A stretch of DNA of 64,000 bases from the NCBI GenBank assembly GCA_037783545.1, contig JBBELK010000837.1, forward strand, positions 124,001 to 188,000, written 5' to 3'. Numbering within the stretch: the stretch's first letter is position 1; each line of letters starts with the position of its first letter. This document shows positions 16,737 to 64,000 of the stretch, piece after piece. The notes beneath the pieces are model-generated. The model saw nothing but the letters and a program-made list of their open reading frames with translations. It searched no databases and had not been told where the DNA came from. This stretch comes from Henricia sp. BOLD:AAB3569 (lineage: Eukaryota; Echinodermata; Asteroidea; Spinulosida; Echinasteridae). The position numbers and the translations under genes were made by a program.

Positions 16737-16750
16737 GCGCGGTTTTCAGG

Positions 16751-16823
16751 GCCCGGTTAGCTCAGTCGGTAGAGCATCAGACTTTTAATCTGAGGGTCAA
16801 GGGTTCAAGTCCCTTATCGGGCG
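16751..16823 (+). tRNA. trnK-UUU: tRNA-Lys(UUU), copy 1
   Basis: Decodes AAA/AAG as lysine. The cloverleaf is complete: acceptor GCCCGGT/ATCGGGC with discriminator G73, D stem GCTC/GAGC, anticodon stem TCAGA/TCTGA with loop CTTTTAA (anticodon 16784-16786), T stem AAGGG/CCCTT with loop TTCAAGT. The internal A box (TTAGCTCAGTCGG) and B box (GGTTCAAGTCC) mark an RNA polymerase III type 2 promoter. It is close to the widespread animal tRNA-Lys(UUU) body and matches the array consensus at every base. It has no intron and no encoded CCA. Confidence 0.95.
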
Positions 16824-17139
16824 AGACGTTTGCAAAGACGGTTGAGCATCTACTCTTTTTCCAATTTTAGGAGGGTTTGCAGCGTACATTCTTGAAATCA
16901 GCAAGTGAACCTAACAACATCGCGAAGAACATTTCCATCTCAGACCGTCGTCACGAAAAAGAAGCATGCAGTAAAGGAAACATTGCCAGGCTGATTTAAT
17001 TTTCGTTCTCGGCTACAGCGAGGAGGGCACGTACATTTTGTTTAGAAGGGGATGAATCACACATGCAGGGACGTACTTGCGCATCCTGATGCCTCGCTTT
17101 GTGCCGTAACTACAAACCTAAATTTCAAAACGGAACAGT

Positions 17140-17222
17140 TCCTTCGAGCCGGATTTGAACTAGCGACCTATCGATATCAATTTTACTACGGTCCACCGCT
17201 CTACCAACTGAGCTATCGAAGG
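17140..17222 (-). tRNA. trnY-GUA: tRNA-Tyr(GUA) with intron, copy 1 (decayed)
   Basis: The consensus of this gene family has acceptor CCTTCGA/TCGAAGG with discriminator A73, D stem GCTC/GAGC, anticodon stem GTGGA/TCCAT, loop CTGTAG-A and T arm GCTGG-TTCAAAT-CCGGC. A 10-base intron, TAAAATTGAT, follows position 37, the usual place for metazoan tRNA-Tyr introns, and is removed by tRNA splicing endonuclease. This copy departs from the consensus at T33 to C (the normally invariant U33), C41 to G (breaks the anticodon stem) and G52 to A (breaks the T stem). It is probably non-functional. Confidence 0.75.
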
Positions 17223-17338
17223 AAGACGTGCATATCGCTGTCATCACTGCCCGGAATTTTTTAAACATGTCTGTATCGTCAGACGATGCTGGTAAAATGT
17301 AAGCTAATTTCTTGTTACATGCAGACGCGGTTTTCAGA

Positions 17339-17411
17339 GCCCGGTTAGCTCAGTCGGTAGAGCATCAGACTTTTAATCTGAGGGTCAAGGGTTCAAGTCC
17401 CTTATCGGGCG
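17339..17411 (+). tRNA. trnK-UUU: tRNA-Lys(UUU), copy 2
   Basis: Identical to the consensus. Confidence 0.95.
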
Positions 17412-17728
17412 AGACGCTTGCAAAGACGGTTGAGCATCTACTCTTTTTTCCAATTTTAGGAGGGTTTGCAGGGTACATTCTTGAAATCAGGAAGTGAACC
17501 TAACAACATCGCGAAGAACATTTTCATCTCAGACAGTCGTCACGAAAAAGAAGCATGCAATAAAGGAAACATTGCCACGCTGATTTCATTTTCGTTGTCG
17601 GCAACAGCGAGGAGTGCACGTACATTTTGTAAAGAAGGGGATGAATCACACATGCAGTGACGTACATGCGCATCCTGATGCCTCGCTTTGTGCCGTAACT
17701 ACAAACCTAAATTTAAAAACGGAACAGT

Positions 17729-17811
17729 TCCTTCGAGCCGGATTTGAACTAGCGACCTATCAATATCAATTTTACTACAGTCCACCGCTCTACCAACTGA
17801 GCTATCGAAGG
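17729..17811 (-). tRNA. trnY-GUA: tRNA-Tyr(GUA), copy 2 (decayed)
   Basis: C40 to T and C41 to G weaken the anticodon stem, and G52 to A breaks the T stem. The intron is intact. Confidence 0.75.
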
Positions 17812-17927
17812 AAGACATGCATATCGCTGTCATCACTGCCCGGAATTTTTCAAACATGTCTGTATCGTCAGACGATGCTGGTAAAATGTAAGCTAATTTA
17901 TTGTTACATGCAGACGCGGTTTTCAGA

Positions 17928-18000
17928 GCCCGGTTATCTCAGTCGGTAGAGCATCAGACTTTTAATCTGAGGGTCAAGGGTTCAAGTCCCTTATCGGGCG
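17928..18000 (+). tRNA. trnK-UUU: tRNA-Lys(UUU), copy 3, A-box variant
   Basis: G10 to T disrupts both the D stem and the A box; the rest is consensus. Confidence 0.8.
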
Positions 18001-18316
18001 AGACGCTTGCAAAGACGGTTGAGCATCTACTCTTTTTCCAATTTTAGGAGGGTTTGCAGGGTACATTCTTGAAATCAGCAAGTGAACCTAACAACATCGC
18101 GAAGAACATTTTCATCTCAGACCGTCGTCACGAAAAAGAAGCATGCAGTAAAGGAAGCATTGCCAGGCTGATTTCATTTTCGTTTTCGGCTACAGCGAGG
18201 AGGGCACGTACATTTTGTTTAGAAGGGGATGAATCACACATGCAGGGACGTACTTGCGCATCCTTATGCCTCGCTTTGTGCTGTAACTACAAACCTAAAT
18301 TTCAAAACGGAACAGT

Positions 18317-18402
18317 TCCTTCGAGCCGGATTTGAACTAGCGACCTATCGATATCAATTTTACTACTGCAGTCCACCGCTCTACCAACTGAGCTATCAAA
18401 GG
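18317..18402 (-). pseudogene. tRNA-Tyr copy 3 with 3-base insertion
   Basis: Three extra bases at the anticodon/intron boundary turn CTGTAG into CTGCAGTAG, so a normal 7-base loop would present GCA or require altered splicing. It also carries C41 to G, G52 to A and C5 to T. The locus is 86 bp long. Confidence 0.75.
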
Positions 18403-18516
18403 AAGACGTGCATATCGCTGTCGTCCCTGCCCGGAATTTTTTTAACATGTCTGTATCGTCAGACGATGCTGGTACAATGTAAGCTAATTTCTTGTTACAA
18501 GGAGGCGCATTTCAGA

Positions 18517-18589
18517 GCCCGGTTAGCTCAGTCGGTAGATCATCAGACGTTTAATCTGAGGGTCAAGGCTTCAAGTCCCTTATCGGGCG
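18517..18589 (+). pseudogene. tRNA-Lys copy 4, damaged
   Basis: T33 to G removes the invariant base before the anticodon, G24 to T breaks the D stem and G53 to C breaks the T stem. The UUU triplet remains. Confidence 0.7.
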
Positions 18590-18905
18590 AGACGCTTGCA
18601 AAGACGGTTGAGCATCTACTCTTTTTCCAATTTTAGGAGGGTTTGCAGGGTACATTCTTGAAATCAGGAAGTGAACCTAACAACATCGCGAAGAACATTT
18701 TCATCTGAGACAGTCGTCACGAAAAAGAAGCATGCAATAAAGGAAACATTGCCACGCTGATTTCATTTTCGTTGTCGGCAACAGCAAGGAGTGCACGTAC
18801 ATTTTGTAAAGAAGGGGATGAATCACACATGCAGTGACGTACATGCGCATCCTGATGCCTCGCTTTGTGCCGTAAATACAAACCTAAATTTAAAAACGGA
18901 ACAGT

Positions 18906-18988
18906 TCCTTCGAGCCGGATTTGAACTAGCGACCTATCGATATCAATTTTACTACAGTCCACCGCTCTACCAACTGAGCTATCGAAGG
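18906..18988 (-). tRNA. trnY-GUA: tRNA-Tyr(GUA), copy 4 (decayed)
   Basis: C41 to G and G52 to A, the same two lesions as the other left-edge copies. Confidence 0.75.
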
Positions 18989-19104
18989 AAGACATGCATA
19001 TCGCTGTCATCACTGCCCGGAATTTTTTAAACATGTCTGTATCGTCAAACGATGCTGGTAAAATGTAAGCTAATTTCTTGTTACATGCAGACGCGGTTTT
19101 CAGA

Positions 19105-19177
19105 GCCCGGTTAGCTCAGTCGGTAGAGCATCAGACTTTTCATCTGAGGGTCAATGGTTCAAGTCCCTTATCGGGCG
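19105..19177 (+). tRNA. trnK-UUU: tRNA-Lys, copy 5, variant
   Basis: A37 to C beside the anticodon and G51 to T in the T stem. Confidence 0.75.
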
Positions 19178-19496
19178 AGACGCTTGCAAAGACGGTTGAG
19201 CATCTACTCTTTTTTTTCCAATTTTAGGAGGGTTTGCAGGATACATTCTTGAAATCAGCAAGTGAACCTAACAACATCGCGAAGAACATGTTCATCTCAG
19301 ACAGTCGTCACGAAAAAGAAGCATGCAGTAAAGGAAACATTGCCACGCTGATTTCATTTTCGTTGTCGGCAACAGCGAGGAGTGCACGTACATTTTGTAA
19401 ACAAGGGGATGAATCACACATGCAGTGACGTACATGCGCATCCTGATGCCTCGCTTTGTGCCGTAAATACAAAGCTAAATTTCAAAACGGAAACGT

Positions 19497-19579
19497 TCCT
19501 TCGAGCCGGATTTGAACCAGCGCCCTATGGATATCAATTTTACTACAGTCCACCGCTCTACCAACTGAGCTATCGAAGG
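19497..19579 (-). tRNA. trnY-GUA: tRNA-Tyr(GUA), copy 5
   Basis: One change, T47 to G in the variable loop. This is the first copy from the left with intact anticodon and T stems. Confidence 0.88.
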
Positions 19580-19695
19580 AAGACATGCAGATCGTTGTCG
19601 TCACTCCCCGGAATTTTTTCAACATGTCTGTATCATCAGACGATGCTGGTAAAATGTAAGCTAATTTCTTGTTACATGGAGGCGCGGTTTTCAGA

Positions 19696-19768
19696 GCCCG
19701 GTTAGCTCAGTCGGTAGATCATCAGACTTTTAATCTGAGGGTCAAGGGTTCAAGTCCCTTATCGGGCG
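19696..19768 (+). tRNA. trnK-UUU: tRNA-Lys(UUU), copy 6, variant
   Basis: G24 to T breaks the D stem. Confidence 0.8.
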
Positions 19769-20084
19769 AGACGCTTGCAAAGACGGTTGAGCATCTACTC
19801 TTTTTCCAATTTTAGGAGGGTTTGCAGGGTACATTCTTGAAATTAGGAAGTGAACCTAACAACATCGCGAAGAACATTTTCATCTTAGACAGTCGTCACG
19901 AAAAAGAAGCATGCAGTAAAGGAAACATTGCCACGCTGATTTCATTTTCGTTGTCGGCTACAGCGAGGGGTGCACGTACATTTTGTAAACAAGGGGATGA
20001 ATCACACATGCAGTGACGTACATGCGCATCCTGATGCCTCGCTTTGTGCCGTAAATACAAAGCTAAATTTCAAAACGGAAACGT

Positions 20085-20167
20085 TCCTTCGAGCCGGATT
20101 TGAACCAGCGACCTATGGATATCAATTTTACTACAGTCCACCGCTCTACCAACTGAGCTATCGAAGG
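20085..20167 (-). tRNA. trnY-GUA: tRNA-Tyr(GUA), copy 6
   Basis: Identical to the consensus including the 10-base intron. Confidence 0.93.
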
Positions 20168-20283
20168 AAGACATGGAGATCGTTGTCGTCACTCCCCGGA
20201 ATTTTTTCAACATGTCTGTATCATCAGACGATGCTGGTAAAATGTAAGCTAATTTCTTGTTACCTGGAGGCGCGGTTTTCAGA

Positions 20284-20356
20284 GCCCGGTTAGCTCAGTC
20301 GGTAGATCATCAGACTTTTAATCTGAGGGTCAAGGGTTCAAGTCCCTTATCGGGCG
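20284..20356 (+). tRNA. trnK-UUU: tRNA-Lys(UUU), copy 7, variant
   Basis: G24 to T, as in copy 6. Confidence 0.8.
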
Positions 20357-20671
20357 AGACGCTTGCAAAGACGGTTGAGCATCTACTCTTTTTCCAATTT
20401 TAGGAGGGTTTGCAGGGTACATTCTTGAAATTAGGAAGTGAACCTAACAACATCGCGAAGAACATTTTCATCTTAGACAGTCGTCACGAAAAAGAAGCAT
20501 GCAGTAAAGGAAACATTGCCACGCTGATTTCATTTTCGTTGTCGGCTACAGCGAGGAGGGCACGTACATTTTGTAAAGAAGCTTGGAAGGAATCACACAT
20601 GCAGGGACATGCGCATACTGATGCCTCGCTTTGTGTCGTAACTACAAACCTAAATTTCAAAACGGAACAGT

Positions 20672-20754
20672 TCCTTCGAGCCGGATTTGAACCAGCGACC
20701 TATGGATAACAATTTTACTACAGTCCACCGCTCTACCAACTGACCTATCGAAAG
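20672..20754 (-). tRNA. trnY-GUA: tRNA-Tyr, copy 7, variant
   Basis: C11 to G breaks the D stem and A box; C2 to T gives a wobble; the intron is TAAAATTGTT. Confidence 0.78.
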
Positions 20755-20870
20755 AAGACGTGCAGATAGTTGTCGTCACTCCGCGGAATTTTTCGAACAT
20801 GTCTGTATCGTCGGTCGATGCTGGTACAATGTAAGCTAATTTATTGTTACATGGAGGCGCGGTTTTCAGA

Positions 20871-20943
20871 GCCCGGTTAGCTCAGTCGGTAGAGCATCAG
20901 ACTTTTAATCTGAGGGTCAAGGGTTCAAGTCCATTATCGGGCG
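20871..20943 (+). tRNA. trnK-UUU: tRNA-Lys(UUU), copy 8, variant
   Basis: C63 to A breaks one T-stem pair. Confidence 0.82.
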
Positions 20944-21261
20944 AGACGCTTGCAAAGACGGTTGAGCATCTACTCTTTTTTTCCAATTTTAGGAGGGTTT
21001 GCAGGGTACATTCTTGAAATCAGGAAGTGAACCTAACAACATCGCGAAGAACATTTTCATCTCAGACAGTCTTCACGAAAAAGAATCATGCTGTAAAGAA
21101 ACATTGCCACGCTGATTTCATTTTCGTTGTCGGCTAGAGCGAGGAGGGCAAGTACAATTTGTAAAGAAGGGGGATGAATCACACATGCAGGTACGTACAT
21201 GCGCATCCTGATGCCTCGCTTTGTGCCATAACTACAAACCTAAATTTCAAAACGGAACAGT

Positions 21262-21343
21262 TCCTTCGAGCCGGAATGAACCAGCGACCTATGGATATCA
21301 ATTTTACTACAGTCCACCGCTCTACCAACTGAGCTATCGAAGG
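21262..21343 (-). pseudogene. tRNA-Tyr copy 8, T-loop deletion
   Basis: A base is lost and another changed in the T loop (TTCATT), leaving a 6-base loop and a broken B box. The locus is 82 bp. Confidence 0.75.
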
Positions 21344-21459
21344 AAGACGTGCAGATCGTTGTCGTCACTCCCCGGAATTTTTCCAACATGTCTGTATCGT
21401 CGGACGATGCTGGTACAATTTAAGCTAATTTCTTGTTACATGGAGGCGCGGTTTTCAGA

Positions 21460-21532
21460 GCCCGGTTAGCTCAGTCGGTAGAGCATCAGACTTTTAATCT
21501 GAGGGTCATGGGTTCAAGTCCCTTATCGGGCG
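21460..21532 (+). tRNA. trnK-UUU: tRNA-Lys(UUU), copy 9, variant
   Basis: A50 to T in the T stem. Confidence 0.82.
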
Positions 21533-21848
21533 AGACGCTTGCAAAGACGGTTGAGCATCTATTCTTTTTCCAATTTTAGGAGGGTTTGCAGGGTACATTC
21601 TTGAAATCAGGAAGTGAACCTGACAACATCGCGAAGAATATTTTCATCTCAAACAGTCGTCACGAAAAAGAAGCATGCAGTAAAGGAAACATTGCCACGC
21701 TGATTTCATTTTCGTTGTCGGCAACAGCGAGGAGTGCACGTACATTTTGTAAAGAAGGGGATGAATCACACATGCAGGGACGTACATGCGCATCCTGATG
21801 CCTCGCTTTGTACCGTAACTACAAACCTAAATTTCAAAACGGAACAGT

Positions 21849-21931
21849 TCCTTCGAGCCATATTTGAACCAACGACCTATGGATATCAATTTTACTACAG
21901 TCCACCGCTCTACCAACTGAGCTATCGAAGG
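21849..21931 (-). tRNA. trnY-GUA: tRNA-Tyr(GUA), copy 9, weak T arm
   Basis: C50 to T, C61 to A and C62 to T leave a poorly paired T stem. Confidence 0.72.
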
Positions 21932-22047
21932 AAGACGTGCAGATCGTTGTCGTCACTGCCCGGAATTGTTCAAACATGTCTGTATCGTCAGACGATGCTG
22001 GTAAAATGTAAGCTAATTTCTTGTTACATGGAGGTGCGGTTTTCAGA

Positions 22048-22120
22048 GCCCGGTTAGCTCAGTCGGTAGAGCATCAGACTTTTAATCTGAGGGTCAAGGG
22101 TTCAAGTCCCTTATCGGGCG
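22048..22120 (+). tRNA. trnK-UUU: tRNA-Lys(UUU), copy 10
   Basis: Identical to the consensus. Confidence 0.95.
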
Positions 22121-22438
22121 AGACGCTTGCAAAGACGGTTGAGCATCTACTCTTTTTTTCCAATTTTAGGAGGGTTTGCAGGGTACATTCTTGAAATCAG
22201 GAAGTGAACCTAACACCATCGCGAAGAACATTTTCATCTCAGACAGTCTTCACGAAAAAGAATCATGCAGTAAAGAAACATTGCCACGCTGATTTCATTT
22301 TCGTTGTCGGCTAGAGCGAGGAGGCCAAGTACAATTTGTAAATAAGGGGGATGAATCACACATGCAGGTACGTACATGCGCATCCTGATGCCTCGCTTTG
22401 TGCCATAACTACAAACCTAAATTTCAAAACGGAACAGT

Positions 22439-22520
22439 TCCTTCGAGCCGGAATGAACCAGCGACCTATGGATATCAATTTTACTACAGTCCACCGCTCT
22501 ACCAACTGAGCTATCGAAGG
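22439..22520 (-). pseudogene. tRNA-Tyr copy 10, T-loop deletion
   Basis: Same 6-base T loop as copy 8. Confidence 0.75.
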
Positions 22521-22636
22521 AAGACGTGCAGATCGTTGTCGTCACTCCCCGGAATTTTTCCAACATGTCTGTATCGTCGGACGATGCTGGTACAATTTAA
22601 GCTAATTTCTTGTTACATGGAGGCGCGGTTTTCAGA

Positions 22637-22709
22637 GCCCGGTTAGCTCAGTCGGTAGAGCATCAGACTTTTAATCTGAGGGTCATGGGTTCAAGTCCCT
22701 TATCGGGCG
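22637..22709 (+). tRNA. trnK-UUU: tRNA-Lys(UUU), copy 11, variant
   Basis: A50 to T. Confidence 0.82.
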
Positions 22710-23025
22710 AGACGCTTGCAAAGACGGTTGAGCATCTATTCTTTTTCCAATTTTAGGAGGGTTTGCAGGGTACATTCTTGAAATCAGGAAGTGAACCTGA
22801 CAACATCGCGAAGAATATTTTCATCTCAAACAGTCGTCACGAAAAAGAAGCATGCAGTAAAGGAAACATTGCCACGCTGATTTCATTTTCGTTGTCGGCA
22901 ACAGCGAGGAGTGCACGTACATTTTGTAAAGAAGGGGATGAATCACACATGCAGGGACGTACATGCGCATCCTGATGCCTCGCTTTGTACCGTAACTACA
23001 AACCTAAATTTCAAAACGGAACAGT

Positions 23026-23108
23026 TCCTTCGAGCCATATTTGAACCAACGACCTATGGATATCAATTTTACTACAGTCCACCGCTCTACCAACTGAGCT
23101 ATCGAAGG
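23026..23108 (-). tRNA. trnY-GUA: tRNA-Tyr(GUA), copy 11, weak T arm
   Basis: C50 to T, C61 to A, C62 to T. Confidence 0.72.
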
Positions 23109-23224
23109 AAGACGTGCAGATCGTTGTCGTCACTGCCCGGAATTGTTCAAACATGTCTGTATCGTCAGACGATGCTGGTAAAATGTAAGCTAATTTCTTG
23201 TTACATGGAGGCGCGGTTTTCAGA

Positions 23225-23297
23225 GCCCGGATAGCTCAGTCGGTAGAGCATCAGACTTTTAATCTGAGGGTCAAGGGTTCAAGTCCCTTATCGGGCG
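23225..23297 (+). tRNA. trnK-UUU: tRNA-Lys(UUU), copy 12, variant
   Basis: T7 to A opens the last acceptor pair. The duplicated partner (copy 20) keeps T7, so this change postdates the 8-unit duplication or was removed from the partner. Confidence 0.83.
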
Positions 23298-23615
23298 AGA
23301 CGCTTGCAAAGACGGTTGAGCATCTACTCTTTTTTTCCAATTTTAGGAGGGTTTGCAGGGTACATTCTTGAAATCAGGAAGTGAACCTAACAACATCGCG
23401 AAGAACATTTTCATCTCAGACAGTCGTCACGAAAAAGAATCATGCAGTAAAGAAACATTGCCACGCTGATTTCATTTTCGTTGTCGGCTAGAGCGAGGAG
23501 GGCAAGTACAATTTGTAAAGAAGGGGGATGAATCACACATGCAGGTACCTACATGCGCATCCTGATGTCTCGCTTTGTGCCGTAACTACAAACCTAAATT
23601 TCAAAACGGAACAGT

Positions 23616-23698
23616 TCCTTCGAGCCAGATTTGAACCAGCGACCTATGGATATCAATTTTACTACAGTCCACCGCTCTGCCAACTGAGCTATCGAAGG
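23616..23698 (-). tRNA. trnY-GUA: tRNA-Tyr(GUA), copy 12, variant
   Basis: C62 to T (wobble) and T20 to C in the D loop. Confidence 0.8.
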
Positions 23699-23814
23699 AA
23701 GACGTGCAGATCGTTGTCGTCACTGCCCGGAATTTTTCCAACATGTCTGTATCGTCAGAAGATGCTGGTAAAATGTAAGCTAATTTCTTGTTACATGGAG
23801 GCGCGGTTTTCAGA

Positions 23815-23887
23815 GCCCGGTTAGCTCAGTCGGTAGAGCATCAGAGTTTTAATCTGAGGGTCAAGGGTTCAAGTCCCTTATCGGGCG
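23815..23887 (+). tRNA. trnK-UUU: tRNA-Lys(UUU), copy 13, variant
   Basis: C32 to G at the start of the anticodon loop. The downstream CTTGCAAAGACG is deleted. Confidence 0.82.
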
Positions 23888-24191
23888 AGACGGTTGAGCA
23901 TCTACTCTTTTTCCAATTTTAGAAGGGTTTGCAGGGTACATTCTTGAAATCAGGAAGTGAACCTGACAACATCGCGAAGAACATTTTCATCTCAGACAGT
24001 CATCACGAAAAAGAGGAATGCAGTAAAGGAAACATTGCCACGCTGATTTCATTTTCGATGTCGGCAACAGCGAGGAGTGCACGTACATTTTGTAAAGAAG
24101 GGGATGAATCACACATGCAGGGACGTACATGCGCATCCTGATGCCTCGCTTTGTACCGTAACTACAAACCTAAATTTCAAAACGGAACAGT

Positions 24192-24274
24192 TCCTTCGAG
24201 CCAGATTTGAACAAGCGACCTATGGATATCAATTTTACTACAGTCCACCCCTCTACCAACTGAGCTATCGAAGG
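24192..24274 (-). tRNA. trnY-GUA: tRNA-Tyr, copy 13, damaged
   Basis: C25 to G breaks the D stem, G52 to T breaks the T stem, and C62 to T. Confidence 0.72.
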
Positions 24275-24390
24275 AAGACGTGCAGGTCGTTGTCGTCACT
24301 GCTCGGAATTTTTCCAACATGTCTGTATCTTCGGACGATGCTGGTACAATGTAAGCTAATTTCTTGTTACATGGAGGCGCGGTTTTCAGA

Positions 24391-24463
24391 GCCCGGTTAG
24401 CTCAGTCGGTAGAGCATCAGACTTTTAATCTGAGGGTCAAGGGTTCAAGTCCCTTATCGGGCG
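24391..24463 (+). tRNA. trnK-UUU: tRNA-Lys(UUU), copy 14
   Basis: Identical to the consensus. Confidence 0.95.
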
Positions 24464-24779
24464 AGACGCTTGCAAAGACGGTTGAGCATCTATTCTTTTT
24501 CCAATTTTAGGAGGGTTTGCAGGGTACATTCTTGAAATCAGGAAGTGAACCTAACAACATCGCGAAGAACATTTTCATCTCAGACCGTCGTCACAAACAA
24601 GAGGAATGCAGTAAAGGAAACATTGCCACGCTGATTTCATTTTCGTTGTCGGCAACAGCGAGGAGTGCACGTACATGTTGTAAAGAAGGGGATGAATCAC
24701 ACATGCAGGGACGTACATGCGCATCCTGATGCCTCGCTTTGTACCGTAACTACAAACCTAAATTTCAAAACGGAACAGT

Positions 24780-24862
24780 TCCTTCGAGCCAGATTTGAAC
24801 CAGCGACCTTTGGATATCAATTTTACTACAGTCCACCGCTCTACCAACTGACCTATCGAAGG
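24780..24862 (-). tRNA. trnY-GUA: tRNA-Tyr, copy 14, variant
   Basis: C11 to G (D stem, A box), T43 to A and C62 to T. Confidence 0.74.
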
Positions 24863-24978
24863 AAGACGTGCAGATCGTTGTCGTCACTCCCCGGAATTTT
24901 TCCACTATGTCTGTATCGTCAGACGATGCTGGTAAAATGTAAGCTAATTTCTTGTTACATGGAGGCGCGGTTTTCAGA

Positions 24979-25051
24979 GCCCGGTTAGCTCAGTCGGTAG
25001 AGCATTAGACTTTTAATCTGAGGGTCAAGGGTTCAAGTCCCTTATTGGGCG
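24979..25051 (+). tRNA. trnK-UUU: tRNA-Lys(UUU), copy 15, variant
   Basis: C28 to T and C68 to T; both leave G-U wobbles. Confidence 0.86.
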
Positions 25052-25366
25052 AGACGCTTGCAAAGACGGTTGAGCATCTACTCTTTTTCCAATTTTAGAA
25101 GGGTTTGCAGGGTACAATCTTGAAATCAGGAAGTGAACCTGACAACATCGCAAAGAACATTTTCATCTCAGACAGTCATCACGAAAAAGAGGAATGCAGT
25201 AAAGGAAACATTGCCACGCTGATTTCATTTTCGTTGTCGGCTACAGCGAGGAGGGCACGTACATTTTGTAAAGAAGCTTGGAAGGAATCACACATGCAGG
25301 GACATGCGCATACTGATGCCTCGCTTTGTGTCGTTACTACAAACCTAAATTTCAAAACGGAACAGT

Positions 25367-25449
25367 TCCTTCGAGCCGGATTTGAACCAGCGACCTATGG
25401 ATAACAATTTTACTACAGTCCACCGCTCTACCAACTGACCTATCGAAAG
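25367..25449 (-). tRNA. trnY-GUA: tRNA-Tyr, copy 15, variant
   Basis: C11 to G, C2 to T and intron TAAAATTGTT, as in copy 7. Confidence 0.78.
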
Positions 25450-25565
25450 AAGACGTGCAGATAGTTGTCGTCACTCCGCGGAATTTTTCGAACATGTCTG
25501 TATCGTCGGTCGATGCTGGTACAATGTAAGCTAATTTATTGTTACATGGAGGCGCGGTTTTCAGA

Positions 25566-25638
25566 GCCCGGTTAGCTCAGTCGGTAGAGCATCAGACTTT
25601 TAATCTGAGGGTCAAGGGTTCAAGTCCATTATCGGGCG
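25566..25638 (+). tRNA. trnK-UUU: tRNA-Lys(UUU), copy 16, variant
   Basis: C63 to A, as in copy 8. Confidence 0.82.
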
Positions 25639-25956
25639 AGACGCTTGCAAAGACGGTTGAGCATCTACTCTTTTTTTCCAATTTTAGGAGGGTTTGCAGG
25701 GTACATTCTTGAAATCAGGAAGTGAACCTAACAACATCGCGAAGAACATTTTCATCTCAGACAGTCTTCACGAAAAAGAATCATGCTGTAAAGAAACATT
25801 GCCACGCTGATTTCATTTTCGTTGTCGGCTAGAGCGAGGAGGGCAAGTACAATTTGTAAAGAAGGGGGATGAATCACACATGCAGGTACGTACATGCGCA
25901 TCCTGATGCCTCGCTTTGTGCCATAACTACAAACCTAAATTTCAAAACGGAACAGT

Positions 25957-26038
25957 TCCTTCGAGCCGGAATGAACCAGCGACCTATGGATATCAATTTT
26001 ACTACAGTCCACCGCTCTACCAACTGAGCTATCGAAGG
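25957..26038 (-). pseudogene. tRNA-Tyr copy 16, T-loop deletion
   Basis: Duplicate of copy 8, 82 bp. Confidence 0.75.
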
Positions 26039-26154
26039 AAGACGTGCAGATCGTTGTCGTCACTCCCCGGAATTTTTCCAACATGTCTGTATCGTCGGAC
26101 GATGCTGGTACAATTTAAGCTAATTTCTTGTTACATGGAGGCGCGGTTTTCAGA

Positions 26155-26227
26155 GCCCGGTTAGCTCAGTCGGTAGAGCATCAGACTTTTAATCTGAGGG
26201 TCATGGGTTCAAGTCCCTTATCGGGCG
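26155..26227 (+). tRNA. trnK-UUU: tRNA-Lys(UUU), copy 17, variant
   Basis: A50 to T. Confidence 0.82.
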
Positions 26228-26543
26228 AGACGCTTGCAAAGACGGTTGAGCATCTATTCTTTTTCCAATTTTAGGAGGGTTTGCAGGGTACATTCTTGAA
26301 ATCAGGAAGTGAACCTGACAACATCGCGAAGAATATTTTCATCTCAAACAGTCGTCACGAAAAAGAAGCATGCAGTAAAGGAAACATTGCCACGCTGATT
26401 TCATTTTCGTTGTCGGCAACAGCGAGGAGTGCACGTACATTTTGTAAAGAAGGGGATGAATCACACATGCAGGGACGTACATGCGCATCCTGATGCCTCG
26501 CTTTGTACCGTAACTACAAACCTAAATTTCAAAACGGAACAGT

Positions 26544-26626
26544 TCCTTCGAGCCATATTTGAACCAACGACCTATGGATATCAATTTTACTACAGTCCAC
26601 CGCTCTACCAACTGAGCTATCGAAGG
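26544..26626 (-). tRNA. trnY-GUA: tRNA-Tyr(GUA), copy 17, weak T arm
   Basis: Duplicate of copy 9 (C50 to T, C61 to A, C62 to T). Confidence 0.72.
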
Positions 26627-26742
26627 AAGACGTGCAGATCGTTGTCGTCACTGCCCGGAATTGTTCAAACATGTCTGTATCGTCAGACGATGCTGGTAAA
26701 ATGTAAGCTAATTTCTTGTTACATGGAGGTGCGGTTTTCAGA

Positions 26743-26815
26743 GCCCGGTTAGCTCAGTCGGTAGAGCATCAGACTTTTAATCTGAGGGTCAAGGGTTCAA
26801 GTCCCTTATCGGGCG
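26743..26815 (+). tRNA. trnK-UUU: tRNA-Lys(UUU), copy 18
   Basis: Identical to the consensus. An 8-base T-run follows (about 26848-26855), the longest downstream of any Lys copy here. Confidence 0.95.
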
Positions 26816-27134
26816 AGACGCTTGCAAAGACGGTTGAGCATCTACTCTTTTTTTTCCAATTTTAGGAGGGTTTGCAGGGTACATTCTTGAAATCAGGAAG
26901 TGAACCTAACAACATCGCGAAGAACATTTTCATCTCAGACAGTCTTCACGAAAAAGAATCATGCAGTAAAGAAACATTGCCACGCTGATTTCATTTTCGT
27001 TGTCGGCTAGAGCGAGGAGGCCAAGTACAATTTGTAAATAAGGGGGATGAATCACACATGCAGGTACGTACATGCGCATCCTGATGCCTCGCTTTGTGCC
27101 ATAACTACAAACCTAAATTTCAAAACGGAACAGT

Positions 27135-27216
27135 TCCTTCGAGCCGGAATGAACCAGCGACCTATGGATATCAATTTTACTACAGTCCACCGCTCTACCA
27201 ACTGAGCTATCGAAGG
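27135..27216 (-). pseudogene. tRNA-Tyr copy 18, T-loop deletion
   Basis: Duplicate of copy 10. Confidence 0.75.
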
Positions 27217-27332
27217 AAGACGTGCAGATCGTTGTCGTCACTCCCCGGAATTTTTCCAACATGTCTGTATCGTCGGACGATGCTGGTACAATTTAAGCTA
27301 ATTTCTTGTTACATGGAGGCGCGGTTTTCAGA

Positions 27333-27405
27333 GCCCGGTTAGCTCAGTCGGTAGAGCATCAGACTTTTAATCTGAGGGTCATGGGTTCAAGTCCCTTATC
27401 GGGCG
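27333..27405 (+). tRNA. trnK-UUU: tRNA-Lys(UUU), copy 19, variant
   Basis: A50 to T. Confidence 0.82.
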
Positions 27406-27721
27406 AGACGCTTGCAAAGACGGTTGAGCATCTATTCTTTTTCCAATTTTAGGAGGGTTTGCAGGGTACATTCTTGAAATCAGGAAGTGAACCTGACAAC
27501 ATCGCGAAGAATATTTTCATCTCAAACAGTCGTCACGAAAAAGAAGCATGCAGTAAAGGAAACATTGCCACGCTGATTTCATTTTCGTTGTCGGCAACAG
27601 CGAGGAGTGCACGTACATTTTGTAAAGAAGGGGATGAATCACACATGCAGGGACGTACATGCGCATCCTGATGCCTCGCTTTGTACCGTAACTACAAACC
27701 TAAATTTCAAAACGGAACAGT

Positions 27722-27804
27722 TCCTTCGAGCCATATTTGAACCAACGACCTATGGATATCAATTTTACTACAGTCCACCGCTCTACCAACTGAGCTATCG
27801 AAGG
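27722..27804 (-). tRNA. trnY-GUA: tRNA-Tyr(GUA), copy 19, weak T arm
   Basis: Duplicate of copy 11. Confidence 0.72.
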
Positions 27805-27920
27805 AAGACGTGCAGATCGTTGTCGTCACTGCCCGGAATTGTTCAAACATGTCTGTATCGTCAGACGATGCTGGTAAAATGTAAGCTAATTTCTTGTTAC
27901 ATGGAGGCGCGGTTTTCAGA

Positions 27921-27993
27921 GCCCGGTTAGCTCAGTCGGTAGAGCATCAGACTTTTAATCTGAGGGTCAAGGGTTCAAGTCCCTTATCGGGCG
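27921..27993 (+). tRNA. trnK-UUU: tRNA-Lys(UUU), copy 20
   Basis: Identical to the consensus. Confidence 0.95.
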
Positions 27994-28311
27994 AGACGTT
28001 TGCAAAGACGGTTGAGCATCTACTCTTTTTTTCCAATTTTAGGAGGGTTTGCAGGGTACATTCTTGAAATCAGGAAGTGAACCTAACAACATCGCGAAGA
28101 ACATTTTCATCTCAGACAGTCGTCACGAAAAAGAATCATGCAGTAAAGAAACATTGCCACGCTGATTTCATTTTCGTTGTCGGCTAGAGCGAGGAGGGCA
28201 AGTACAATTTGTAAAGAAGGGGGATGAATCACACATGCAGGTACGTACATGCGCATTCTGATGTCTCGCTTTGTGCCGTAACTACAAACCTAAATTTCAA
28301 AACGGAACAGT

Positions 28312-28394
28312 TCCTTCGAGCCAGATTTGAACCAGCGACCTATGGATATCAATTTTACTACAGTCCACCGCTCTGCCAACTGAGCTATCGAAGG
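28312..28394 (-). tRNA. trnY-GUA: tRNA-Tyr(GUA), copy 20, variant
   Basis: C62 to T and T20 to C. Confidence 0.8.
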
Positions 28395-28510
28395 AAGACG
28401 TGCAGATCGTTGTCGTCACTGCCCGGAATTTTTCCAACATGTCTGTATCGTCAGAAGATGCTGGTAAAATGTAAGCTAATTTCTTGTTACATGGAGGCGC
28501 GGTTTTCAGA

Positions 28511-28583
28511 GCCCGGTTAGCTCAGTCGGTAGAGCATCAGAGTTTTAATCTGAGGGTCAAGGGTTCAAGTCCCTTATCGGGCG
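28511..28583 (+). tRNA. trnK-UUU: tRNA-Lys(UUU), copy 21, variant
   Basis: C32 to G; short downstream spacer as in copy 13. Confidence 0.82.
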
Positions 28584-28886
28584 AGACGGTTGAGCATCTA
28601 CTCTTTTTCCAATTTAGAAGGGTTTGCAGGGTACATTCTTGAAATCAGGAAGTGAACCTGACAACATCGCGAAGAACATTTTCATCTCAGACAGTCATCA
28701 CGAAAAAGAGGAATGCAGTAAAGGAAACATTGCCACGCTGATTTCATTTTCGATGTCGGCAACAGCGAGGAGTGCACGTACATTTTGTAAAGAAGGGGAT
28801 GAATCACACATGCAGGGACGTACATGCGCATCCTGATGCCTCGCTTTGTACCGTAACTACAAACCTAAATTTCAAAACGGAACAGT

Positions 28887-28969
28887 TCCTTCGAGCCAGA
28901 TTTGAACAAGCGACCTATGGATATCAATTTTACTACAGTCCACCCCTCTACCAACTGAGCTATCGAAGG
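28887..28969 (-). tRNA. trnY-GUA: tRNA-Tyr, copy 21, damaged
   Basis: C25 to G, G52 to T, C62 to T. Confidence 0.72.
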
Positions 28970-29085
28970 AAGACGTGCAGGTCGTTGTCGTCACTGCTCG
29001 GAATTTTTCCAACATGTCTGTATCTTCGGACGATGCTGGTACAATGTAAGCTAATTTCTTGTTACATGGAGGCGCGGTTTTCAGA

Positions 29086-29158
29086 GCCCGGTTAGCTCAG
29101 TCGGTAGAGCATCAGACTTTTAATCTGAGGGTCAAGGGTTCAAGTCCCTTATCGGGCG
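29086..29158 (+). tRNA. trnK-UUU: tRNA-Lys(UUU), copy 22
   Basis: Identical to the consensus. Confidence 0.95.
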
Positions 29159-29474
29159 AGACGCTTGCAAAGACGGTTGAGCATCTATTCTTTTTCCAAT
29201 TTTAGGAGGGTTTGCAGGGTACATTCTTGAAATCAGGAAGTGAACCTGACAACATCGCGAAGAACATTTTCATCTCAGACCGTCGTCACAAACAAGAGGA
29301 ATGCAGTAAAGGAAACATTGCCACGCTGATTTCATTTTCGTTGTCGGCAACAGCGAGGAGTGCACGTACATGTTGTAAAGAAGGGGATGAATCACACATG
29401 CAGGGACGTACATGCGCATCCTGATGCCTCGCTTTGTACCGTAACTACAAACCTAAATTTCAAAACGGAACAGT

Positions 29475-29557
29475 TCCTTCGAGCCAGATTTGAACCAGCG
29501 ACCTTTGGATATCAATTTTACTACAGTCCACCGCTCTACCAACTGACCTATCGAAGG
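29475..29557 (-). tRNA. trnY-GUA: tRNA-Tyr, copy 22, variant
   Basis: C11 to G, T43 to A, C62 to T. Confidence 0.74.
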
Positions 29558-29673
29558 AAGACGTGCAGATCGTTGTCGTCACTCCCCGGAATTTTTCCAC
29601 TATGTCTGTATCGTCAGACGATGCTGGTAAAATGTAAGCTAATTTCTTGTTACATGGAGGCGCGGTTTTCAGA

Positions 29674-29746
29674 GCCCGGTTAGCTCAGTCGGTAGAGCAT
29701 TAGACTTTTAATCTGAGGGTCAAGGGTTCAAGTCCCTTATCGGGCG
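29674..29746 (+). tRNA. trnK-UUU: tRNA-Lys(UUU), copy 23, variant
   Basis: C28 to T (wobble). Unlike its partner copy 15, C68 is retained. Confidence 0.88.
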
Positions 29747-30061
29747 AGACGCTTGCAAAGACGGTTGAGCATCTACTCTTTTTCCAATTTTAGAAGGGTT
29801 TGCAGGGTACAATCTTGAAATCAGGAAGTGAACCTGACAACATCGCAAAGAACATTTTCATCTCAGACAGTCATCACGAAAAAGAGGAATGCAGTAAAGG
29901 AAACATTGCCACGCTGATTTCATTTTCGTTGTCGGCAACAGCGAGGAGTGCACGTACATTTTGTAAAGAAGTGGGGAATCACACATGCAGGGACGTACAT
30001 GCGCATGCTGATGCCTCGCTTTGTGCCATAACTACAAACCTAAATTTCAAAACGGAACAGT

Positions 30062-30144
30062 TCCTTCGAGCCGGATTTGAACCAACGACCTATGGATATC
30101 AATTTTACTACAGTCCAGCGCTCTACCAACTCAGCTATCGAAGG
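30062..30144 (-). tRNA. trnY-GUA: tRNA-Tyr, copy 23, damaged
   Basis: C13 to G (D stem), G27 to C (anticodon stem) and C50 to T. Confidence 0.73.
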
Positions 30145-30260
30145 AAGACGTACAGATCGTTGTCGTCACTGCCCGGAATTTTTCCACTATGTCTGTATCG
30201 TCGGACGATGCTGGTAAAATGTAAGCTAATTTCTTGTTACATGGAGGCGCGGTTTTCAGA

Positions 30261-30333
30261 GCCCGGTTAGCTCAGTCGATAGAGCATCAGACTTTTAATC
30301 TGAGGGTCAAGGGTTCAAGTCCCTTATCGGGCG
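30261..30333 (+). tRNA. trnK-UUU: tRNA-Lys(UUU), copy 24, variant
   Basis: G19 to A removes one of the two conserved D-loop guanines. Confidence 0.82.
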
Positions 30334-30649
30334 AGACGCTTGCAAAGACGGTTGAGCATCTACTCTTTTTCAAATTTTAGAAGGGTTTGCAGGGTACATT
30401 CTTGAAATCAGGAAGTGAACCTGACAACATCGCGAAGAACATTTTCATCTCAGACAGTCGTCACGAAAAAGAAGCATGCAGTAAAGGAAACATTGCCACG
30501 CTGATTTCATTTTCGTTGTCGGCAACAGCGAGGTGTGCACGTACATTTTGTAAAGAAGGGGATGAATCACACATGCAGGGACGTACATGCGCATCCTGAT
30601 GCCTCGCTTTGTGCCATAACTACAAACCTAAATTTCAAAACGGAACAGT

Positions 30650-30732
30650 TCTTTCGAGCCGGATTTGATCCAGCGACCTTAGGATATCAATTTTACTACA
30701 GTCCACCGCTCTACCAACTGGGCTATCGAAGG
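30650..30732 (-). pseudogene. tRNA-Tyr copy 24, heavily changed
   Basis: T12 to C, A42 to T, T43 to A, T54 to A and G71 to A hit the D, anticodon, T-loop and acceptor elements. The GUA triplet and intron remain. Confidence 0.7.
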
Positions 30733-30848
30733 AAGACGTGCAGTTCGTTGTCGTCACTCCCCGGAATTGTTTCACTATGTCTGTATCGTCAGACGATGCT
30801 GGTAAAATGTAAGCTAATTTCTTGTTACATGGAGGCACGGTTTTCAGA

Positions 30849-31300: not shown

Positions 31301-31352
31301 GATGCCTCGCTTTGTGCCGTAACTACAAACCTAAATTTCAAAACGGAACAGT

Positions 31353-31921: not shown

Positions 31922-31969
31922 TTTGAACCAGCGACCTGTTCACCGCTCTACCAACTGAGCTATCGAAGG
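31922..31969 (-). pseudogene. Truncated tRNA-Tyr, copy 26
   Basis: The D arm and 5' acceptor strand are intact, but the 3' acceptor strand and the anticodon loop with its intron are deleted. Sequence passes from the T-arm region (GAACCAGCGACCTG) directly to TTCACCGCTCTACC. Confidence 0.88.
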
Positions 31970-33911: not shown

Positions 33912-34226
33912 AGACGCTTGCAAAGACGGTTGAGCATCTATTCTTTTTCCAATTTGAGGAGGGTTTGCAGGGTACATTCTTGAAATCAGGAAGAGAACCT
34001 GACAACATCGCAAAGAACATTTTCATCTCAGACCGTCGTCACGAAAAAGAAGCATGCAGTAAAGGAAACATTGCCACGCTGATTTCATTTTCGTTGTCAG
34101 CAACAGCGAGGAGGGCACGTACATTTTGTAAAGAAGGGGATGAATCACACATGCATGGACGTACATGCGCATCCTGATGTCTCGCTTTGTGCCGTAACTA
34201 CAAACCTAATTTCAAAACGGAACAGT

Positions 34227-34309
34227 TCCTTCGAGCCAGATTTGAATCAGCGACCTATGGATATCAATTTTACTACAGTCCACCGCTCTACCAACTGAGC
34301 TATCGAAGG
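34227..34309 (-). tRNA. trnY-GUA: tRNA-Tyr(GUA), copy 30, variant
   Basis: G53 to A and C62 to T weaken the T stem. Confidence 0.78.
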
Positions 34310-34389
34310 AAGACGTGCAGAGCGTTGTCGTCACTGCCCGGAATTTTGCCAACATGTCTGTATCGTCCGACGATGCTGGTACAATGTAA

Positions 34390-34412
34390 GCTAATTTCTT
34401 TTTCCAATTTGA
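34390..34412 (+). other. Deletion junction: unit lacking tRNA-Lys
   Basis: The upstream CTAATTTCTT is joined directly to the downstream TTTCCAATTTGAGGAGGG, removing the expected tRNA-Lys together with its flanks. The join falls in a CTTTTT-like T-run shared by both sides, which suggests microhomology-mediated or slipped deletion. Confidence 0.9.
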
Positions 34413-34676
34413 GGAGGGTTTGCAGGGTACATTCTTGAAATCAGCAAGTGAACCTAACAACATCGCGAAAACATTTTCATCTCAGAGCGTCGTCACGAAA
34501 AAGAAGCATGCAGTAAAGGAAACATTGCCACGCTGATTTCATTTGCGTTGTCGGCGACAGCGAGGAGGGCACGTACATTGTGTAAAGAATGGGATTAATC
34601 ACACATGCAGGGACATGCGCATCATGATGCCTCGCTTTGTGCCGTAACTACAAACCTAATTTCAAAACGGAACAGT

Positions 34677-34759
34677 TCCTTCGAGCCGGATTTGAACCAG
34701 CGACCTATGGATATCAATTTTACTACAGTCCACCGCTCTACCAACTGAGCTATCGAAGG
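34677..34759 (-). tRNA. trnY-GUA: tRNA-Tyr(GUA), copy 31
   Basis: Identical to the consensus. It belongs to the unit that lost its Lys gene. Confidence 0.95.
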
Positions 34760-34875
34760 AAGACGTGCAGATCGTTGTCGTCACTCCCCGGAATTTTTCG
34801 AACATGTCTGTTTCGTCGGACGATGCTGGTACAATGTAAGCTAATTTCTTGTTACATGGAGACACGTTTTTCAGA

Positions 34876-47540: not shown

Positions 47541-47613
47541 GCCCGGTTAGCTCAGTCGGTAGAGCATCAGACTTTTAATCTGAGGGTCAAGGGTTCAAGT
47601 CCCTTATCGGGCG
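47541..47613 (+). tRNA. trnK-UUU: tRNA-Lys(UUU), copy 49
   Basis: Identical to the consensus. Confidence 0.95.
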
Positions 47614-47925
47614 AGACGCTTGCAAAGACGGTTGAACATCTACTCTTTTTCCAATTTGAGGAGGGTTTGCAGGGTACATTCTTGAAATCAGGAAGTGAAC
47701 CTAACAACATCGCGAAGAACATTTTCATCTCAGACCGTCGTCACGAAAAAGAAGCATGCAGTAAAGGAAACATTGCCACGCTGATTTCATTTTCGTTGTC
47801 GGCTACAGCGAGGAGGGCACGTACATTGTGTAAAGAATGGGATGAATCACACATGCAGGGACATGCGCATCCTGATGCCTCGCTTTGTGCCGTAACTACA
47901 AACCTAAATTTCAAAACGGAACAGT

Positions 47926-48008
47926 TCCTTCGAGCCGGATTTGAACCAGCGACCTATGGATATCAATTTTACTACAGTCCACCGCTCTACCAACTGAGCT
48001 ATCGAAGG
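47926..48008 (-). tRNA. trnY-GUA: tRNA-Tyr(GUA), copy 50
   Basis: Identical to the consensus. Confidence 0.95.
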
Positions 48009-48124
48009 AAGACGTGCAGATCGTTGTCGTCACTCCCCGGAATTTTTCGAACATGTCTGTTTCGTCGGACGATGCTGGTACAATGTAAGCAAATTTTTTG
48101 TTACATGGAGACACGTTTTTCAGA

Positions 48125-61958: not shown

Positions 61959-62074
61959 AAGACGTGCAGATCGTTGTCGTCACTCCCCGGAATTTTTCGA
62001 ACATGTCTGTTTCGTCGAACGATGCTGGTACAATGTAAGCTAATTTCTTGTTACATGGAAGCCCGTTTTTCAGA

Positions 62075-62147
62075 GCCCGGTTAGCTCAGTCGGTAGAGCA
62101 TCAGACTTTTAATCTGAGGGTCAAGGGTTCAAGTCCCTTATCGGGCG
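62075..62147 (+). tRNA. trnK-UUU: tRNA-Lys(UUU), copy 74
   Basis: Identical to the consensus. Confidence 0.95.
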
Positions 62148-62459
62148 AGACGCTTGCAAAGACGGTTGAGCATCTACTCTTTTTCCAATTTGAGGAGGAT
62201 TTGCAGGGTACATTCTTGAAATCAGCAAGTGAACCTAACAACATCGCGAAGAACATTTTCATCTCAGACCGTCGTCACGAAAAAGAAGCATGCAGTAAAG
62301 GAAACATTGCCACGCTGATTTCATTTTCGTTGTCGGCTACAGCGAGGAGAGCACGTACATTGTGTAAAGAATGGGATGAATCACACATGCAGGGACATGC
62401 GCATCCTGATGCCTCGCTTTGTGCCGTAACTACAAACCTAAATTTCAAAACGGAACAGT

Positions 62460-62542
62460 TCCTTCTAGCCGGATTTGAACCAGCGACCTATGGATATCAA
62501 TTTTACTACAGTCCACCGCTCTACCAACTGAGCTATCGAAGG
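62460..62542 (-). tRNA. trnY-GUA: tRNA-Tyr(GUA), copy 75, variant
   Basis: C67 to A. Confidence 0.83.
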
Positions 62543-62658
62543 AAGACGTGCAGATCGTTGTCGTCACTGCCCGGAATTTTTCGAACATGCCTGTTTCGTC
62601 GAACGATGCTGGTACAATGTAAACTAATTTCTTGTTACATGGAAGCCCGTTTTTCAGA

Positions 62659-62731
62659 GCCCGGTTAGCTCAGTCGGTAGAGCATCAGACTTTTACTCTG
62701 AGGGTCAAGGGTTCAAGTCCCTTATCGGGCG
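62659..62731 (+). tRNA. trnK-UUU: tRNA-Lys(UUU), copy 75, variant
   Basis: A38 to C. Confidence 0.85.
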
Positions 62732-63045
62732 AGACGCTTGCAAAGACGGTTGAGCATCTACTCTTTTTTTCTAATTTGAGGAGGGTTTGCAGGGTACATT
62801 CTTGAAATCAGCAAGTGAACCTAACAACATCGCGAAGAACATTTTCATCTCAGACCGTCGTCACGAAAAAGAAGCATGCAGTAAAGGAAACATTGCCACG
62901 CTGATTTCATTTTCGTTGTCGGCTACAGCGAGGAGGGCACGTACATTGTGTAATAAATGGGATGAATCACACATGCAGGGACATGCGCATCCTGATGCCT
63001 CGCTTTGTGCCGTAACTACAAACCTAAATTTCAAAACGGAACAGT

Positions 63046-63128
63046 TCCTTCGAGCCGGATTTGAACCAGCGACCTATGGATATCAATTTTACTACAGTCC
63101 ACCGCTCTACCAACTGAGCTATCGAAGG
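63046..63128 (-). tRNA. trnY-GUA: tRNA-Tyr(GUA), copy 76
   Basis: Identical to the consensus. Confidence 0.95.
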
Positions 63129-63244
63129 AAGACGTGCAGATCGTTGTCGTCACTCCCCGGAATTTTTCGAACATGTCTGTTTCGTCGAACGATGCTGGTA
63201 CAATGTAAGCTAATTTCTTGTTACATGGAAGCCCGTTTTTCAGA

Positions 63245-63317
63245 GCCCGGTTAGCTCAGTCGGTAGAGCATCAGACTTTTAATCTGAGGGTCAAGGGTTC
63301 AAGTCCCTTATCGGGCG
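63245..63317 (+). tRNA. trnK-UUU: tRNA-Lys(UUU), copy 76
   Basis: Identical to the consensus. Confidence 0.95.
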
Positions 63318-63629
63318 AGACGCTTGCAAAGACGGTTGAGCATCTACTCTTTTTCCAATTTGAGGAGGGTTTGCAGGGTACATTCTTGAAATCAGGAAGT
63401 GAACCTAACAACATCGCGAAGAACATTTTCATCTCAGACCGTCGTCACGAAAAAGAAGCATGCAGTAAAGGAAACATTGCCACGCTGATTTCATTTTCGT
63501 TGTCGGCTACAGCGACGAGGGCACGTACATTTTGTAAAGAATGGGATGAATCACACATGCAGGGACATGCGCATCCTGATGCCTCGCTTTGTGCCGTAAC
63601 TACAAACCTAAATTTCAAAACGGAACAGT

Positions 63630-63712
63630 TCCTTCGAGCCGGATTTGAACCAGCGACCTATGGATATCAATTTTACTACAGTCCACCGCTCTACCAACTG
63701 AGATATCGAAGG
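63630..63712 (-). tRNA. trnY-GUA: tRNA-Tyr(GUA), copy 77, variant
   Basis: G10 to T, as in copy 70. Confidence 0.82.
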
Positions 63713-63828
63713 AAGCCGTGCAGATCGTTGTCGTCACTCCCCGGAATTTTTCGAACATGTCTGTTTCGTCGGACGATGCTGGTACAATGTAAGCTAATTT
63801 CTTGTTACATGGAGACACGTTTTTCCGA

Positions 63829-63901
63829 GCCCGGTTAGCTCAGTCGGTAGAGCATCAGACTTTTAATCTGAGGGTCAAGGGTTCAAGTCCCTTATCGGGC
63901 G
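63829..63901 (+). tRNA. trnK-UUU: tRNA-Lys(UUU), copy 77
   Basis: Identical to the consensus; the usual upstream TTTTCAGAG is TTTTCCGAG. The unit is cut by the end of the window. Confidence 0.95.
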
Positions 63902-64000
63902 AGACGCTTGCAAAGACGGTAGAGCATCTACTCTTTTTCCAATTTGAGGAGGGTTTGCAGGGTACATTCTTGAAATCAGCAAGTGAACCTAACAACATCG

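Follow-up and report, generated by a model that had tools for sequence, protein, structure and literature searches.

A tandem array of tRNA-Lys(UUU) and tRNA-Tyr(GUA) gene pairs in a sea star: reservoir of working genes or silent satellite?

The reason why genomes keep large, redundant clusters of transfer RNA (tRNA) genes is an open question. It is raised here by a stretch of 64,000 nucleotides from the sea star Henricia sp. BOLD:AAB3569 (contig JBBELK010000837.1, positions 124,001 to 188,000; this whole stretch is called the window), in which a 583–591-bp unit, carrying a tRNA-Lys(UUU) gene on one strand and an intron-bearing tRNA-Tyr(GUA) gene on the other, is repeated head to tail for about 47 kb, from about position 16738 to the window edge at 64000. 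Are these genes used, or is the array a mostly silent, heterochromatic tRNA-gene satellite, selfish or neutral, whose genes stay intact solely through its youth and homogenisation? Our results suggest that it is probably a genuine RNA polymerase III multigene family, in which a Lys/Tyr pair would have been amplified and homogenised into a redundant reservoir of used genes that is selected as a whole; the silent satellite we regard as possible but rather doubtful. A compact two-gene array of 77 units, many of them with private bases, makes it possible to ask both which of the copies give rise to transcripts and whether selection acts on the gene or on the array.

The genes were recognised by three programs. 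ARAGORN, run in bacterial mode, in which the Tyr genes go unreported, found 77 plus-strand genes between 16751 and 63901, 76 of them Lys(TTT) and one labelled Gln(TTG). The Rfam tRNA model gave 153 matches at its gathering score (29); the 150 listed comprise 77 on the plus and 73 on the minus strand, the best scores among them reaching 74.2 bits for Lys and 61.8 bits for Tyr, and the three further matches probably correspond to the Tyr copies at 29475, 30650 and 31353. With blastn we found 77 Lys genes and 76 full Tyr genes on the minus strand, 71 of the latter without indels, as well as an 18-base match within a Lys gene. Note that 77 is a minimum copy number: the array continues past the window edge. 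The single Gln label, at 35459–35531, was rejected because this copy carries four changes; among these, two stem pairs are broken and one invariant base is lost, and the copy is likely a Lys pseudogene.

Measured from Lys to Lys, 73 of the 77 units are 533–591 bp long. The four exceptions are a 703-bp unit (with a 119-bp duplication), a 1037-bp unit (with a 450-bp duplication), a 2760-bp unit (with a retrotransposon insertion) and the last unit, which is cut by the edge. The spacing is mostly 587–591 bp in the left part of the array and mostly 583–586 bp in the right part. From 16751 to the window edge the units adjoin one another, as seen with blastn, and the left border is sharp, since similarity to the unit extends only 12 bp before the first Lys gene (16738–16749); blastn found no further unit pieces in 1–16750. 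A nuclear location of the array is probable, judging by the flank, the intron in the Tyr gene and the inserted retrotransposon.

Within the unit, the order is Lys (plus strand), 312 bp, Tyr (minus strand), 116 bp and the next Lys, which places Tyr and the following Lys head to head over the short spacer and Lys and Tyr tail to tail over the long one; the two genes make up about 27% of a 584-bp unit. All 21 checked stem positions are paired in the Lys consensus, which also carries A and B boxes that we take to be standard, and the mature Tyr consensus, with anticodon GUA, likewise pairs at 21 of 21. The lowest-energy fold of Tyr is the cloverleaf, and Lys folded alone keeps three arms with the anticodon arm shifted. 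The Tyr intron is identical in sequence in 67 of the 71 indel-free copies. Runs of 4–8 T follow the Lys gene at +32/33 in 68 of 77 copies and at +20 in four, and are absent within 90 nt in five, while 4–5 T stand 8–9 nt past the gene in all 76 full Tyr copies. Transcription of the array genes by RNA polymerase III is predicted from the boxes and terminators. A typical unit contains no short tandem repeats.

These results bear out what the first-pass annotation had read from the letters. The paired genes on opposite strands were recovered by ARAGORN, Rfam and blastn together, the intron proposed for Tyr is present in the consensus as 10 nt, and the A and B boxes and terminators are seen in the sequence. 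The repeat, described there as at least 77 head-to-tail copies of about 584–589 bp running to the window edge, came out as 77 Lys genes in a 583–591-bp unit, and the covariance-model check suggested for the genes returned the 153 Rfam matches given above.

To compare the units, we aligned 73 of the 77, leaving out the three with insertions and the edge unit. Self-comparison of the array gave 57 ungapped matches of at least 900 bases, with identities of 98.4–99.8% among the best 40 of the 57; the offsets among the matches listed include 2, 3, 5, 6, 7, 8 and 11 units, and the block duplications measure 1–5 kb. One block of about 5 kb is present twice, in three matched pieces at 99.2–99.7% identity. 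Here the units of 20284–24978 pair one for one with those of 24979–29673, eight units apart and with 0–13 differences each, and exact whole-unit duplicates exist, for example those at 20871 and 25566. Among the aligned units, the Lys gene occurs as 24 sequence types and the Tyr gene as 25. The units evolve in concert, as seen from the near-identical blocks at several offsets and the homogeneous right part of the array.

The left and right parts of the array are not in the same state. Distance to the consensus spans 5–70 columns over the aligned units, being 23–42 columns for units up to 30261 and 5–23 from 34876 on. A gene copy was counted as intact, by a simple cloverleaf rule, if it had the 21 standard stem pairs and 11 checked invariant bases; this holds for 49 of 77 Lys and 31 of 76 Tyr genes. 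By zone, intact copies are 12/25 Lys and 4/24 Tyr in the left zone (to 31000), 3/10 and 5/10 in the middle zone (to 39000), and 34/42 and 22/42 in the right zone. Fisher tests, which treat the copies as independent although they are not, gave P values of 0.007 (Lys) and 0.005 (Tyr) for left versus right and of 0.006 for Lys versus Tyr. Blocks, homogeneity and a decayed edge are what one would expect if unequal exchange or conversion had acted on an array whose edge is older.

How are variants distributed between genes and spacers? Across the whole array, variable sites are about as dense in the genes as in the spacers, yet gene variants occur in fewer copies. In the 73 units, the density of variable sites per base was 0.356 in Lys, 0.392 in Tyr, 0.300 in the Tyr intron, 0.244 in the Lys trailer, 0.356 in the convergent spacer and 0.426 in the divergent spacer; the mean minor-allele counts, in the same order, were 1.81, 2.79, 1.33, 6.00, 4.15 and 7.90. 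With the Tyr intron grouped with the rest, the gene-minus-rest difference in minor-allele count was not matched in any of 583 label rotations or 2000 permutations, and the difference in diversity was matched in 10 and 6, respectively. Moreover, the majority sequences of the left and right parts differ at 15 sites, all 15 of them in spacers, where 4.0 would be expected in genes. That gene variants spread less than spacer variants, and that the majority genes are the same on both sides while the spacers differ, both speak against a silent satellite. In our reading, the gain or loss of a single copy would be immaterial, yet bad versions fail to take over the array. Note that gene-biased conversion could yield an equal picture.

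Several results weigh against selection on the genes. Of the 15 left/right differences, no more than 3 are fixed, and an absence of all 15 from the genes also arises in 33 of 583 rotations. Within zones, the minor-allele difference was matched by 41 of 583 rotations on the left and 122 of 583 on the right, and since this signal is weak, the whole-array signal stems largely from variants that separate the zones. In the right zone, Tyr variants have a mean count of 3.50, no lower than the 2.79 of the convergent spacer, and in the left zone Tyr diversity (0.054) is about that of the same spacer (0.051). The cloverleaf, an invariant base or the anticodon is broken by 22 of the 30 change types in Lys and by 24 of the 31 in Tyr; with 0.64 expected, such changes are no rarer than chance, which speaks against selection on single copies. 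Nor are breaking types held to fewer copies than harmless ones in Lys (means of 1.64 and 1.50), some structure-breaking types reach 4–6 copies, the eight-unit duplication on the left carried broken Tyr genes along, and 45 of the 76 Tyr copies are not fully intact. Beside these stand two further values: breaking Tyr types average 2.33 copies versus 3.43 for harmless ones, and genes in the right zone have somewhat fewer variable sites (79 of 583 rotations).

The silent satellite draws its support from the same observations: structure-breaking changes at chance frequency, some of them spread, 20 of 24 left-zone Tyr genes not intact, and a block structure that is satellite-like. In addition, zebrafish tRNA genes in large clusters are near-completely CpG-methylated (PMC11574265). 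The CpG content of our array may point the other way. Observed/expected CpG is 1.05 and 1.09 in the two parts of the array; for comparison, the flank has 0.95 and the retrotransposon 0.69. Changes of the C>T/G>A types were seen at 0.37–0.39 of CpG positions versus 0.21–0.23 of other C/G positions, an excess of just 1.6–1.9-fold. Undepleted CpG would speak against long-standing heavy germline methylation, though not against other kinds of silencing; many invertebrates methylate repeats little. On balance, the sequence leans towards genes maintained by array-level selection over a decaying satellite. The whole-array sign, gene variants as common as spacer variants but in fewer copies, can be tested in other individuals and in sister species.

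Under the multigene family explanation, one head-to-head Lys(UUU)-Tyr(GUA) pair would have been amplified as a 584-bp unit, and unequal exchange, gene conversion or both would maintain the likeness of the units. Blocks of up to eight units would be duplicated within the array, with more decayed copies towards its left edge. Every intact gene would be served by an internal promoter (A and B boxes) and a terminator of its own, and the genes may contribute to the bulk supply, or to that of a stage or tissue where demand is high. Any single copy would be dispensable, selection presumably acting on the count of good copies across the array.

A third possibility is that the array is a stage- or tissue-specific reserve (oocyte, embryo or a Lys/Tyr-rich gland), silent elsewhere like the Ser-Tyr-Tyr (SYY) cluster of Arabidopsis thaliana. 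It would be a special case of the multigene family, with which its odds overlap, and taken by itself we consider it unlikely. A core of good copies beside variable pseudogene regions, as in SYY (PMC12308677), the tRNAs of two amino acids in one unit and the high copy number would all fit such a reserve, but plain concerted evolution gives an identical layout. A bolder version, which we hold to be quite improbable, is that the array provides Lys/Tyr tRNA as a specialised supply, activated only during massive output of a Lys/Tyr-rich protein (egg, adhesive or sclerotising secretion), an animal counterpart of SYY with selection on the number of good pairs. Finally, an assembly artefact multiplying a smaller array, to which the exact copies at 20871 and 25566 might point, is very hard to credit, given units 5–70 columns off the consensus, duplicated blocks with private changes and a retrotransposon inside.

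Table 1. Features of the tRNA-Lys/tRNA-Tyr array (window positions; a dot marks features without a strand).
Feature	Position	Strand	Basis
Tandem array, 77 Lys/Tyr units	16738..64000	.	ARAGORN, Rfam, blastn
More decayed left part (zone counted to 31000)	16751..30848	.	Intactness count
Block of ~5 kb (eight whole units) in two copies, offset 4695–4696 bp	20212..29971	.	Self-comparison, unit alignment
Remnant of truncated Tyr gene, 32 bases, in 533-bp unit	31938..31969	-	blastn
450-bp partial duplication; adds a Tyr gene with no Lys	33941..34850	.	Unit spacing, Rfam, unit alignment
Non-long terminal repeat (non-LTR) retrotransposon, apparently 5'-truncated, in 3'-3' spacer	37328..39505	+	Open frame with RVT_1, ATT-rich 3' tail
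Representative unit, 584 bp	47541..48124	.	blastn, unit alignment
tRNA-Lys(UUU) of representative unit; identical sequence in 40/77 copies	47541..47613	+	Rfam, copy comparison
3'-3' (convergent) spacer, 312 bp	47614..47925	.	
Predicted Lys terminator, T5, 32 nt past gene	47646..47650	+	Sequence
Predicted Tyr terminator	47913..47916	-	Sequence
tRNA-Tyr(GUA) of representative unit; consensus mature sequence in 26/76 full copies	47926..48008	-	Rfam, copy comparison
Tyr intron, 10 nt, beginning one base past anticodon	47962..47971	-	Sequence
5'-5' (divergent) spacer, 116 bp; highest diversity of unit parts over 73 aligned units	48009..48124	.	

Directly upstream of the Lys gene, unit positions 561–580 (48101–48120) exceed all other 20-base bins in diversity (pi 0.136); unlike this bin, the 3' side of the genes showed no elevated diversity. 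The flanks of busy tRNA genes mutate fast, and we draw nothing from this; a literature search on mutation in tRNA gene flanks returned no paper. Scanned with Rfam at permissive settings, 40000–42400 (about four units) gave only tRNA above threshold, and since the two non-tRNA families matched there scored far under their gathering scores, another small RNA in the convergent spacer was rejected. A 209-amino-acid open frame, present in many units, was also rejected as a protein gene because it shows no synonymous excess: in its convergent-spacer part, 15 of 112 change types are synonymous (0.13 versus 0.22 expected). A database search with this frame gave 21 weak matches spanning 6–27% of it, and no sister array was found among them. 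A tRNA-derived short interspersed nuclear element (SINE) does not account for the repeat either, as the two-tRNA units are contiguous and the search, which covered the window, gave zero unit matches in 1–16750.

The retrotransposon within the array has an open frame of 648 amino acids, with RVT_1 at 6e-31. Among the best 120 of 7936 matches, many relatives are about 1000 amino acids long and also carry the endonuclease-type domains PF03372 and PF14529; those named come from the coral Oculina patagonica (50 and 47%) and the brittle star Amphiura filiformis (50%), which makes an animal source likely. In the left flank, the open frames at 15154–15888, 4706–5173, 5693–6100 and 7419–7763 matched no Pfam family. 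Two strong inverted repeats lie at 11919–11996 and 12211–12282, and the weak microRNA-family matches at 11919–12367, all under gathering scores, fall on them. By eye, an inverted GTGTTAA-rich repeat at 8985–9220 resembles a miniature transposable element, and tRNA-like stretches at 4555–4800, unreported by ARAGORN and by Rfam at E up to 1, recall pieces of tRNA-derived SINEs. The motif TAGGCCTA occurs four times in the flank versus 0.2 expected; we draw nothing from it.

How does the array compare with known systems? Tandem tRNA arrays are established, and the Lys/Tyr array is a further case of a known kind. Its unit is reported in none of the titles and abstract openings listed for literature on tandem tRNA arrays and on Lys/Tyr or echinoderm arrays, with subscription journals mostly outside. 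The 3.2-kb repeat of Xenopus laevis holds mixed tRNA genes including Lys and Tyr, about eight genes in a far longer unit. The first-pass annotation, which had named this repeat and the Entamoeba arrays as precedents, called the two-gene unit unusual; this stands for the gene pair and its orientation; for the general kind there are closer precedents than those two, above all the Arabidopsis SYY cluster. As to orientation, a eukaryotic survey describes adjacent clustered tRNA pairs as mostly parallel, nearly all of them so in Xenopus, zebrafish and Arabidopsis, with head-to-head favoured among antiparallel pairs in some species, such as primates (PMC2888827). Because most clustered pairs are parallel, the antiparallel Lys/Tyr unit appears less usual.

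The Entamoeba arrays are likewise made of tandem units, there with up to five tRNA genes, and are most likely homogenised by concerted evolution; in this protist, however, 25 array types with very AT-rich spacers contain nearly all of the tRNA genes (PMC2652664), whereas one unit type is seen here. Among animals, the human tRNA variable-number tandem repeat at 1q23.3 has 9–43 units per allele and signs of instability, but its unit of 7.3 kb is GC-rich, binds CTCF and consists of tRNA genes for less than 6% (PMC4041453), compared to about 27% of 584 bp in our unit. The methylated clusters of zebrafish chromosome 4, with 5227 genes, are also very large animal tRNA gene clusters (PMC11574265).

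The closest known system is the SYY cluster on chromosome 1 of A. thaliana. Its tandem unit likewise joins tRNAs of two amino acids and includes an intron-bearing Tyr gene, and the cluster has a core of the major type flanked by variable, pseudogene-richer regions, growing by tandem duplication; it differs in belonging to a plant, in having three genes per unit and Ser in place of Lys, and in its 54 clustered Tyr genes (PMC12308677). Moreover, SYY is highly methylated and silenced in most tissues (PMC12308677), whereas the Lys/Tyr array is without CpG loss. The SYY genes are active in root-cap cells, where deletion of the cluster alters a transgenic Ser/Tyr/Pro-rich protein (PMC12308677).

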